Positions 9,652 to 36,270 of a stretch of 64,000 bases of DNA are shown here, one piece after another. Below the pieces are notes generated by a model. It saw only the letters and a list, made by a program, of their open reading frames with translations. It ran no database searches and was not told the origin of the DNA. Both the position numbers and the translations under genes were made by a program. Within the stretch, counting starts at the first letter, position 1, and the number at the start of each line of letters is the position of its first letter. Source of the DNA: Solidesulfovibrio aerotolerans (GTDB lineage Bacteria > Desulfobacterota > Desulfovibrionia > Desulfovibrionales > Desulfovibrionaceae). Where the stretch lies: the NCBI RefSeq assembly GCF_009856865.1, contig NZ_WVUD01000013.1, forward strand, positions 1 through 64,000. Direction: 5' to 3'.

Positions 9652-9727
9652 GCTGGCGTAGCTCAACTGGCAGAGCAGCTGATTTGTAATCAGCAGGTTG
9701 CGGGTTCGAGTCCCATCGCCAGCTCCA
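9652..9727 (+). tRNA. tRNA-Thr (anticodon TGT)
   Basis: Full cloverleaf with acceptor GCTGGCG pairing with CGCCAGC, GGTTCGAGTCC T-arm, anticodon loop TTTGTAA reading TGT, and encoded CCA. First of four tRNAs upstream of tuf. Confidence 0.95.
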
Positions 9728-9732
9728 GGTTC

Positions 9733-9818
9733 GGAGGGGTTCCCGAGTGGCCAAAGGGAACAGACTGTAAATCTGTCGGCGTACGCCTTCGGAGGTTCAA
9801 ATCCTCCCCCCTCCACCA
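9733..9818 (+). tRNA. tRNA-Tyr (anticodon GTA)
   Basis: Class II tRNA with a long variable arm. The acceptor GGAGGGG pairs with CCCCTCC, the anticodon loop reads GTA, the T-arm is GGTTCAAATCC, and CCA is encoded. It lies five bases after tRNA-Thr. Confidence 0.95.
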
Positions 9819-9877
9819 TAGTGCGCGAATGCTGTAGGAGACAGGAAGTCCTGTCGCATGAACTACATGTGACATAC

Positions 9878-9954
9878 GCGGGAATAGCTCAATTGGCTAG
9901 AGCATCAGCCTTCCAAGCTGAGGGTTGCGAGTTCGAGTCTCGTTTCCCGCTCCA
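9878..9954 (+). tRNA. tRNA-Gly (anticodon TCC)
   Basis: Acceptor GCGGGAA pairs with TTCCCGC. The anticodon loop CTTCCAA gives TCC, the T-arm is AGTTCGAGTCT, and CCA is encoded. Confidence 0.95.
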
Positions 9955-9986
9955 AAAGGCCGCCCCGTGTCCTACCGCTAGAAAGG

Positions 9987-10062
9987 GCCCACGTAGCTCA
10001 GTCGGCAGAGCACTTCCTTGGTAAGGAAGAGGTCGCCGGTTCGAATCCGGCCGTGGGCTCCA
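9987..10062 (+). tRNA. tRNA-Thr (anticodon GGT)
   Basis: Acceptor GCCCACG pairs with CGTGGGC. The anticodon loop TTGGTAA gives GGT, the T-arm is GGTTCGAATCC, and CCA is encoded. It is the last tRNA before tuf, 49 bases from the tuf start. Confidence 0.95.
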
Positions 10063-10111
10063 TATCTTCACCTTAAAAAATCCTGAGAAGCAGCAGCTGC
10101 AGGGGGATGAC

Positions 10112-11305
<1,194 letters not shown>

Positions 11306-11308
11306 GTG

Positions 11309-11458
11309 ATGCGGATTAACGTCCAGCTGCAGTGCACCAAGTGCAAGCGCAAGAACTACGCCACGGAAAAGAACAAGAAGAACACGACCGGCCGTCTGGA
11401 ACTCAAAAAGTTCTGCCCCTTCGACCGTGAGCACACGGTTCATCGGGAAACGAAGTAA
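11309..11458 (+). CDS. rpmG: 50S ribosomal protein L33
   Basis: This 49-residue protein starts four bases after the tuf stop. It reads [17 protein letters not shown] at first and closes with HTVHRETK, the L33 signature. The first zinc pair CTKC is present. The second pair is incomplete, reading CPFD where CPFC or CPYC is usual, so three cysteines remain and a neighbouring His may complete the site. Position between tuf and tRNA-Trp/secE supports the call. Confidence 0.95.
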
Positions 11459-11477
11459 GTTCCGGTAGTCATAACGC

Positions 11478-11553
11478 AGGGCAGTAGCTCTAACGGTAGA
11501 GCATCGGACTCCAAATCCGAGGGCTGGGGGTTCGAATCCCTCCTGCCCTGCCA
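11478..11553 (+). tRNA. tRNA-Trp (anticodon CCA)
   Basis: Acceptor AGGGCAG pairs with CTGCCCT. The anticodon loop CTCCAAA reads CCA, the T-arm is GGTTCGAATCC, and the 3' CCA is encoded. It sits between rpmG and secE as in many bacteria. Confidence 0.95.
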
Positions 11554-34097: not shown

Positions 34098-35534
34098 TTA
34101 AAAGAACATGTCGCGGCGGCCGGCTTCGATATCGCCCAGGCGTTCGATGGTCAGGTCGCGGATGCCATCTTTGGGGATGGTGGCCAGGGCTTCCTGGATG
34201 CGCCTCTCACCCAGGACTTTGGTTTCGGGGTCGGCGTAGTCGATCAGATATTCTTTGAAGGTGAGCAGGGCGTTGGGCAGGCAGACGTTTTGGATGGTGC
34301 CGTCTTTGGCCAGACTCATGAAGCGGTCGCCGGTGCGGCCCTGGCGGTAGCAGGCGGTGCAGTAGCTGGGGATAAAGCCGCGCTGGCAGAGCATTCGGAT
34401 GATTTCGTTGGGTGAGCGCTGGTCGCTGGGTTCGAACTGTTGGCCGTTGTTGGTGTTGCTGGTTCCCTCGTGTTCCTCGTGGACTTTCTGGTAGCCACCA
34501 ACGCCCGTGCAGGAGCCGGCGCTGATCTGGGAGATGCCGCAGTCGATGAGTTCGTCGCGAAACTCCGAGTCTTCGCGGGTGGAGAGGATCATGCCGGTAT
34601 AGGGCACGGCCAGTCGGATGATGGCGATGATCTTTTTAAAGGCCTCGTCCGGGACGAGGTAGGGGAAGGTGTCGAGGTTGACGGCACCGGCCGGGCGCAT
34701 GCGCGGGACGGAGATGGTATGGGGGCCGACGCCGAAGGTTTTTTCCAGATGTTCGGCGTGCAGGAACATGGCCACGGTTTCGTATTTCCAGTCGTAGAGG
34801 CCGTAGAGCACGCCGATGCCGACGTCGTCGATGCCGGCTTTCATGGCCCGGTCCATGGCGGTGGTGTGCCAGTTGTAGTCGTGCTTGGGGCCGGAGGGAT
34901 GCAGCTTAGCGTATTGGGGGCGGTTGTAGGTTTCCTGAAAGAGGATGTAGGTGCCGATTTCGGCGTCCTTGAGTTTCTTATAATCTTCGATGGTGGTGGC
35001 GGCGATGTTGATATTGACGCGGCGGATGGAGCCGTTGCCGTCTTTGATGCTGTAGATGGCCTTTATGGCGTCGGTGACGTATTCGATGGGGCAGTTGAGC
35101 GGATCTTCGCCGGCTTCCACGGCCAGGCGTTTGTGGCCGAGGGATTCGAGAATTTCCACCTCGTGTTTGATTTCCTCGGTGGTCAGGCGTTTGCGCAGTT
35201 GGTCCTTGTTGCTGCGTTTAAAACCGCAGTAGACGCAGTTGTTGATGCAGTGGCTGGAGATATAGAGCGGCGCAAAAAGGACGATGCGTTTGCCGTAGAT
35301 GGCCTCTTTGACCTGTTTGGCGGCGGTGAACATGGTTTCAAGGAGTGGCGCGTCGTTGACTTCGAGCAGCACGGCCACTTCTTCGGCGGACAGGCCCTTG
35401 TAGTCCAGGGCCTTATCGATGATGGCGCGCACGGTTTCGGGGTTGGCGGCGGCGCTTTTGGCGGCGGTAAGCGCCGCGTGGATGCGGTTTTCGTCGATAA
35501 ACGCGTCGGATGTGCGCTGGGTTTCGTCAATCAT
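34098..35534 (-). CDS. hydG: [FeFe] hydrogenase maturase HydG (radical SAM tyrosine lyase)
   Basis: HydG splits tyrosine to give the CO and CN ligands of the [FeFe] hydrogenase H-cluster. The 478-residue product has the radical-SAM CX3CX2C motif CINNCVYC (Cys 96, 100 and 103). It also has the C-terminal auxiliary-cluster motif CTAC followed exactly 22 residues later by Cys, the CX2CX22C signature separating HydG from ThiH. It overlaps the TM1266-type gene by eight bases, so the two form one operon. HydE, HydF and the hydrogenase itself are not in this window. The stop is followed directly by repeat copy C. Confidence 0.95.
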   Translation of the reverse strand: MIDETQRTSDAFIDENRIHAALTAAKSAAANPETVRAIIDKALDYKGLSAEEVAVLLEVNDAPLLETMFTAAKQVKEAIYGKRIVLFAPLYISSHCINNCVYCGFKRSNKDQLRKRLTTEEIKHEVEILESLGHKRLAVEAGEDPLNCPIEYVTDAIKAIYSIKDGNGSIRRVNINIAATTIEDYKKLKDAEIGTYILFQETYNRPQYAKLHPSGPKHDYNWHTTAMDRAMKAGIDDVGIGVLYGLYDWKYETVAMFLHAEHLEKTFGVGPHTISVPRMRPAGAVNLDTFPYLVPDEAFKKIIAIIRLAVPYTGMILSTREDSEFRDELIDCGISQISAGSCTGVGGYQKVHEEHEGTSNTNNGQQFEPSDQRSPNEIIRMLCQRGFIPSYCTACYRQGRTGDRFMSLAKDGTIQNVCLPNALLTFKEYLIDYADPETKVLGERRIQEALATIPKDGIRDLTIERLGDIEAGRRDMFF

Positions 35535-35802
35535 GGTCGGCCTCCTTGCGAAGGGTCTTGCTGGTCAGGGCGGACTTGACCGTCACGCCTGGGATATTCC
35601 CGAGTCTGCCGGTAAGCGAACCGATCTCATCGGTTGTGCCTTCGATAATCAGCGACACCACGCCGGCCTGATATTCGGGGCGCGGGATGCCCATGCGGCC
35701 GAGCACGATGTGGCCGTGGTCGCTGATGACGGCGTTGACCTTGTCGGAGATGTGTTTGGGATCGTCGATGACGATGCCGACCACGCCGATACGTCTGTTC
35801 AT
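35527..35802 (-). CDS. TM1266-type putative [FeFe] hydrogenase system regulator
   Basis: This 91-residue protein begins with RIGVVGIVIDD and matches the small TM1266 family (ACT/NikR-like fold), recurrently linked to hydEFG. A regulatory role is a family-level assumption. Residues such as HGHIVLGRMG and GIPRPEY are typical. It precedes and overlaps hydG. Its ATG overlaps, as ATGA, the stop of a 27-codon frame that runs through the upstream terminator, which suggests translational coupling. Confidence 0.85.
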   Translation of the reverse strand: MNRRIGVVGIVIDDPKHISDKVNAVISDHGHIVLGRMGIPRPEYQAGVVSLIIEGTTDEIGSLTGRLGNIPGVTVKSALTSKTLRKEADHD

Positions 35803-35882
35803 GGCTGTTTCCTCGTTTGGGCAATAAAAAACGCCTTCGTTTTCCCAAGGGAAACAAAGGCGTGGTGTTCTGGCTTGTGCAT
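35799..35882 (-). CDS. Putative 27-codon leader peptide
   Basis: An ATG at 35882, with GAGGA eight bases upstream, opens a frame starting MHKPEHHAFVSLGK and ending TRKQP. It translates straight through the terminator hairpin, and its TGA overlaps the ATG of the TM1266-type gene. A ribosome on this frame would disrupt the hairpin, a standard attenuation logic. Expression is not proven. Confidence 0.45.
   Translation of the reverse strand: MHKPEHHAFVSLGKTKAFFIAQTRKQP
35826..35863 (-). terminator. Attenuator-type terminator before TM1266-hydG
   Basis: On the minus strand a 15-bp stem with one mismatch (ACGCCTTTGTTTCCC pairing with GGGAAAACGAAGGCGT) is followed by six U residues. It sits about 25 bases before the TM1266-type start and after the candidate promoter, so it must be bypassed for hydG expression. 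Confidence 0.8.
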
Positions 35883-35981
35883 GGCGTCATCCTCGGCGCA
35901 GGGTCACCCCCTTGCCAGCAGATTGCGGTATGGTTTTTTTCGCCTTCACGTCAGGACCGGTCCCACCGTGGCAGCAAGGCC

Positions 35982-36010
35982 ACTATGCGAGGGTTTTGGA
36001 CGGTTGGCAA
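35982..36010 (-). promoter_or_regulatory. Candidate promoter for TM1266-hydG
   Basis: TTGCCA and CATAGT on the minus strand are separated by 17 bases. The start would be near 35975, giving a G/C-rich leader of about 170 bases ending in the attenuator. The leader's folding segments (for example GGGGGTGACCC near 35905-35915) did not match a riboswitch I know. Confidence 0.45.
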
Positions 36011-36270
36011 GTGCTACGAAAAATTATTTTGTGCGAAGTTGCTTTCTTGCTGGAATTATTGCGAAAGGCAAGTCCTGTCCTGACCGGGCCGGGGCGGGCC
36101 GTGCGAGGCAGGATTGTCCGGCTTGGGAGGGGGCGCATGAATGGCAAGTTGCCTGACTGACACAGCGCAAGCGGCATTGAAGTGTTTTCGGGCATATTGT
36201 GTTCATTGCCGGGAAATGATAACTATCGCTGTTCATTTTTTCTCATATTGAGTCAGCAACACAGGCACAT

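Follow-up and report, generated by a model that had tools for sequence, protein, structure and literature searches.

The TM1266-hydG leader of Solidesulfovibrio looks like an RNA switch whose central hairpin is probably a member of a new RNA family accompanying TM1266 in several bacterial groups

HutP at hut and TRAP at trp are protein-bound attenuators. The logic we propose for the leader of TM1266-hydG in Solidesulfovibrio aerotolerans is the same, in that a small alpha/beta protein would bind the leader RNA and change termination, although TM1266 belongs to a different fold family, the RNA is different, and RNA binding by TM1266 is putative. In the B12 riboswitch of Mycobacterium tuberculosis ppe2, as described in the accessible part of the source, a short upstream open reading frame (uORF) has its ribosome site governed by an RNA structure, and the downstream start, which overlaps the uORF stop (AUGA), depends on uORF translation (PMC11260477). 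The leader in our window (the whole stretch of 64,000 nucleotides that was analysed) likewise carries a uORF and an AUGA-type overlap; ppe2, however, has a B12 aptamer and, in the same accessible text, no intrinsic terminator described inside the ORF (PMC11260477), whereas the window leader RNA is unrelated to any Rfam family. Its design is unusual: a short ORF has its ribosome site within a conserved hairpin and crosses a terminator into the next start codon.

The regulated gene is itself a member of the TM1266 family (structure 2NZC). What is known of this family goes no further than a putative regulatory role, the sources searched attach no RNA element to it, and the 2NZC structure is listed as uncharacterized. 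In Clostridium thermocellum the homologue is a neighbour of hydG, and the accessible part of one report gives it as a putative regulator and a predicted Rex target (PMC8457756). No hydrogenase terms were found in the accessible parts of PMC11109978 and PMC11124144, and searches of an open-access library listed no paper whose title or abstract opening tied an RNA element to TM1266, hydG or hydAB; most subscription papers lay outside this search, so an earlier description in print is possible. A conserved RNA element alongside TM1266 in several phyla gives this protein a directly testable role, and through such an element the assembly of [FeFe]-hydrogenase would have a control of its own at the level of RNA.

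Table 1. Features of the TM1266-hydG leader and the genes that follow it (window coordinates).
Feature	Position	Strand	Remarks
Leader of TM1266-hydG	35977-35799	minus	precedes TM1266 in Solidesulfovibrio
Promoter-like site TTGCCA-17-CATAGT	35982..36010	minus	9/12 to consensus; chance level by itself
Hairpin H1 (UGCC..GAAGGCG), leader 5' end	35941..35973	minus	kept in 14/14; two-sided pair changes
Hairpin H2, probably a diverged copy of the RNA element linked to TM1266; holds the uORF Shine-Dalgarno	35889..35923	minus	
Shine-Dalgarno GAGGA of the leader ORF, within H2	35890..35894	minus	GAGG or GAAGG in 14/14
Leader ORF, 27 codons + stop, overlaps TM1266 start (ATGA)	35799..35882	minus	
Intrinsic terminator (hairpin + six U), within the leader ORF	35826..35863	minus	
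TM1266-family gene	35527..35802	minus	TIGR03959, PF21699
hydG	34098..35534	minus	TIGR03955

A preliminary description of this DNA had named the two genes correctly: in an NCBIfam profile search the TM1266 gene scored 104.5 bits (cut-off 60.8) and HydG 661.7 bits (cut-off 312.15). The promoter it had placed ahead of them fared less well, since the site is present but a promoter scan found one such site where shuffled sequence gives an expectation of 1.0, so that on its own the match does not exceed chance. In all ten aligned genus leaders (this alignment is without 4 of the 14) a -10-like hexamer was seen by eye directly 5' of H1. Also by eye, an AT-rich near-palindrome, GTGNTAC..GTANCAC, overlaps or adjoins the -35 site (window 36011-36038, minus strand), and similar near-palindromes were seen 5' of TM1266 in L040, L043, L099 and L111-L114; it is perhaps a candidate transcription-factor operator. 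Elsewhere in the window, positions 9652-11553 of the plus strand carry five tRNA genes (Thr, Tyr, Gly, Thr, Trp).

TM1266 was present in 14/14 Solidesulfovibrio genomes examined, and in each the leader lay 5' of it, giving an alignment (A1) of the window and 13 counterparts. Taken as a whole, the named leader structure paired in 96.1% of alignment cells, a value reached by 0/500 shuffles; two of five structure measures fell within the shuffle range (two-sided-change pairs, 152/500; further pair types, 395/500). H1 changed on both sides of its pairs, with GC in 10 and AU in 4 leaders at columns 9-35 and AU in 6, UA in 4, GU in 2 and UG in 2 at columns 17-27. The terminator, with a stem at about 35863-35832 and six T at 35831-35826, was present in the minimum-energy fold, and its pairing was kept across the 14 leaders with both-sided changes at several pairs; a simple terminator scan of the window did not list this hairpin, which the folding program does find. 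The terminator of the preliminary description thus held, as did the pairing in related genomes that it had proposed to check. H2 was near-invariant in 14/14 leaders, so its pairs carry little information, and the stability of the 183-nt leader was unremarkable (z -1.23; 25/200 shuffles at least as stable). The part upstream of the ORF had been called GC-structured and unassigned; it proved to be the more informative part of the leader, its second hairpin, H2, carrying the ribosome site of the ORF and resembling a wider RNA element.

The Shine-Dalgarno, ATG, frame and stop/start overlap of the leader ORF were kept in all 14 leaders (the overlap is GTGA in L045), with 26 codons in 13 of them and 27 in the window, where the stop TGA overlaps the ATG of TM1266 at 35802. 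Ensemble folding of the window leader predicts the Shine-Dalgarno bases to be partly to mostly paired (probability 0.33-0.96). Because the other two reading frames of this stretch are also mostly open, openness of the frame means little by itself. The variable columns gave no codon-position signature (of 27 columns each, 20 vary at codon position 1, 17 at position 2 and 18 at position 3), and this even spread, together with the open alternative frames, makes the conservation evidence for a start and an overlap rather than for a peptide product. Peptide residues outside the terminator U run were poorly conserved in the 14 leaders, with no run of one codon. The locus thus has the intrinsic terminator 5' of the gene that marks a transcription attenuator and the conserved start and overlap of stop/start coupling, and lacks the conserved codons or residues of a peptide-sensing leader of the trp/tna type. 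Judged from these alignments, the leader peptide appears to be free of coding constraint, and at most the act of translation would matter. The earlier reading of an attenuator-like leader, in which a frame with its own ribosome binding site crosses the terminator and overlaps the TM1266 start, was therefore upheld; a role for the peptide sequence was not.

The preliminary description had proposed comparing the leader with Rfam. At the gathering cut-offs of Rfam 15 no leader match was found in the window, in 14 leader loci or in 5 further loci, and E-value searches of the window leader and of L147 gave sub-threshold matches only. The sole family with any match to the window leader was the ribosomal protein L10 leader (RF00557; 16.7 bits, E 1.3), which was rejected because the score is far under the gathering score of 44 and the gene context is wrong. 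GGTGGGACCG in H1 resembles a T-box core; it is not kept across the genus and sits far 5' of the terminator, and a T-box was rejected. A pairing of H1 GAAGGC with the 5' arm of the terminator was missing in some genus members by eye, and a long-range GCAAU/AUUGC pair from the consensus fold, with few and clustered changes, was not relied on.

In the TM1266 leaders of other genera we found a compact element with highly conserved unpaired positions and the core CCUGMGGNNAGG-stem-CUGANCC-N(1-3)-AGGG. It lies just 3' of the stop codon of hydB, 5' of TM1266, or both; hydB encodes the small [FeFe]-hydrogenase subunit. (HydA and HydB of L119 were confirmed by Pfam, and other loci were assigned by similarity.) The exact pattern occurred in 45/199 genomes of the order, with 1-4 copies each, and the reversed pattern in 0/199. 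When 84,980 species were scanned, with one genome per species, 102 exact matches turned up on 95 contigs: 45 lay within 450 nt 5' of TM1266 and 31 within 300 nt 3' of hydB, 23 of them in both positions, and one lay just 5' of hydG. The 54 matches at any of these three genes were all on the sense strand and, by record titles, included four Moorella species, Omnitrophota, Lentisphaerae, Verrucomicrobia and Desulfobacterota. The other 48 were near none of the three genes by tblastn, a number to be set beside a rough estimate of about 28 chance matches. L145, L172, L194, L223, L230 and L232 each have two copies in the hydB-TM1266 interval, with a spacing of about 185-235 nt.

For covariance models, 171 element instances were reduced to 67 at 85% similarity, 65 of which formed alignment A2; the 31 rows with a 2-nt CC-AGGG spacer (A3) are the base of model R1. 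In the R1 alignment 82.7% of cells paired against 26-54% in slid versions, and one stem pair showed two-sided changes (AU in 15, GC in 11, GU in 3, UA in 1). At E<=0.05, R1 found the element in the fetched stretch of 53/70 non-genus TM1266 loci of the order, 8 of which had given training rows, and in 17 it found none. At E<=0.01 it found 6/25 loci in other families of the phylum, two being identical in element sequence to training rows; several more loci of these families carry variants by eye.

The element tracks TM1266, not HydG, in a link confounded by shared ancestry. Within the order, the strict motif occurred in 44/76 genomes with TM1266 and in 1/123 without; Fisher values for this association are too small because the genomes share ancestry. 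Among 83 HydG-positive genomes (>440 bits), it was present in 33/56 with TM1266 and 1/27 without, the one exception (G066) being 82% complete. That count left out five genomes at 312-440 bits (one with TM1266, none with the motif), and including them gave 33/57 versus 1/31. Eleven motif-bearing genomes had no HydG above 440 bits, and in the phylum sample the motif was found in 3/26 genomes with TM1266 versus 0/319 without. In L115 and L126 the gene 3' of TM1266 is not hydG but one for a TonB-dependent receptor (Plug domain); neither genome (G061, G074) has a HydG scoring over 440 bits. TM1266 itself is a lone beta-alpha-beta-beta-alpha-beta domain (AlphaFold pLDDT 92.8), nearest in structure comparison to 2NZC and then to NikR C-terminal and ACT domains, and Pfam found no DNA-binding domain in it. 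That TM1266 consists of a single NikR-C/ACT-like domain, in which no DNA-binding part was detected, leads us to infer action on RNA; TM1266 would then be a putative RNA-binding autoregulator, in line with its co-occurrence with the element.

To see whether H2 is a copy of this element, we compared the TM1266 leader and the hydAB locus within single genomes of the genus. R1 gave weak matches (E<=1, best E 0.0087) in 11/14 genus genomes, and in 11/11 of these the best match was just 3' of the HydA gene on the same strand; in the window genome it lies after the stop codon in the stretch 3' of hydAB (G000:C73:237651-237703). This hydB-3' copy aligned with the leader at H2 (CUGC-GGCAAGGGUGUCACACCUGCCCCAAGG / CUGCUGGCAAGGGGGUGAC-CCUGCGCCGAGG) with a score of 36, reached by 0/4922 and 0/5000 random window pieces. 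Across eight such own-genome pairs, 0, 0, 25, 21, 134, 358, 929 and 1700 of 5000 controls were at least as good, that is, strong support in 2/8, moderate in 2/8 and none in 4/8; the best alignment fell at H2 in 5/8 and elsewhere in the leader in 3/8. Neither R1 (31 sequences from other lineages) nor R3 (11 genus copies) reported H2 in the window, and R3 gave weak partial matches at H2 in 4/13 other genus leaders. The GG, AGG-stem-CU, CC and AGG blocks follow one another in one and the same order in H2 and in the element. The full-leader model R2 was strong in 9/9 sampled genus genomes; outside the genus it matched 24/199 genomes at E 4.5e-5 to 0.1, and these matches were rejected as leader homologues, the five that were inspected resembling unrelated coding sequence. 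On balance we consider homology of H2 with the TM1266-linked element fairly probable.

Outside the genus, the 3' strand of the element is complementary to terminator arms. Of 36 chosen leaders, 30 had a script-defined terminator (some of them poor, e.g., L190, L222 and L224) and 6 had none; 27 were tested for complementarity after L215, L234 and L284 were dropped as near-duplicates. For the AGGG strand and the bases that follow it, the terminator region of the same leader was a better pairing partner than the regions from other species (mean 15.6 versus 12.2; 1/20000 permutations as high), the own region being the best partner in only 6/27 leaders. Pairing was clear in L159 (GGGCUGGA/UCCAGCCC) and in L174 and L188 (GGGCUAAUG/CAUUAGCCC), and L282 had 13 bp. 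In such leaders the closed element and the antiterminator would be mutually exclusive, which would be an attenuator design.

We propose, with a probability of about one half, that the window leader attenuates the TM1266-hydG operon and has the conserved RNA element at its core, with H2 as the sensor, a diverged copy specific to the genus. H2 would be held closed by an effector, most likely TM1266 alone or with a ligand; the closed hairpin would hide the uORF Shine-Dalgarno, leaving the ORF untranslated, and the terminator would form and turn TM1266-hydG off. With H2 free, ribosomes could enter the ORF behind RNA polymerase and keep the terminator from forming, then pass across the ATGA overlap onto TM1266. 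The net effect would be negative feedback on H-cluster maturation. What the sequences establish is the set of parts with its conservation, the distribution of the element and, outside the genus, the complementarity between element and terminator; switching, its direction and the effector are inferred.

A rival reading is that H2 is unrelated to the element and is a separate, genus-only regulatory RNA in the same place. The silence of R1 and R3 at H2, the confinement of strong R2 matches to the genus (next best E 4.5e-5) and the four unremarkable own-genome alignments all point that way, whereas the common block order and the alignments at H2 in the window genome (0 of 5000 controls), G182 (0), G172 (21) and G078 (25) argue for kinship, and we hold a separate origin to be possible but the weaker of the two accounts. 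Somewhat unlikely in our view is a new small-molecule riboswitch in which the element serves as aptamer for a ligand linked to hydrogenase or H-cluster assembly, TM1266 being only a regulated gene. Its compactness, its conserved unpaired positions, the terminators that follow it in many leaders and its absence from Rfam would all suit a riboswitch; it is, however, short for an aptamer, follows TM1266 rather than HydG, and is found chiefly beside TM1266 and hydB instead of genes for transport or biosynthesis.

The element might instead be mainly a 3'-end or stability hairpin of the hydAB mRNA that is also present in the intergenic stretch before TM1266. The copies 3' of hydB, 31 of 102, fit this idea, as do the T runs directly after some copies, in L119, L120, L121 and similar hydB 3' UTRs, where the element might itself serve as the hydAB terminator. 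Yet for 22 of the 102 matches, all of them 5' of TM1266, no upstream hydB was detected, and many of these are complementary to the terminator, which leaves this explanation quite improbable. Peptide-sensing attenuation, with ribosome stalling on codons or the nascent peptide setting termination, could draw on the conserved frame across the terminator, but the lack of codon-position bias, of residue conservation outside the U run and of any single-codon run makes it the least credible of all. Extended from the attenuator reading to the whole family, a bolder and quite tentative proposal is that TM1266 proteins may be RNA-binding feedback regulators that recognise a specific hairpin, both in the leader of their own gene and 3' of hydB, and so adjust [FeFe]-hydrogenase and its maturation through RNA. 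This would hold in Desulfobacterota, Bacillota, Omnitrophota and other groups, and the Solidesulfovibrio operator would have been rebuilt to gate a translated antiterminator ORF.

Seven loci (L283, L285, L287, L291, L297, L014 and L077) encode a variant TM1266 subfamily (RVAI..SV..LN) and, by eye, have another leader motif, approximately CTGACRYC..GA.GGAAG. If real, this would mean that the RNA type changes with the type of TM1266 protein.
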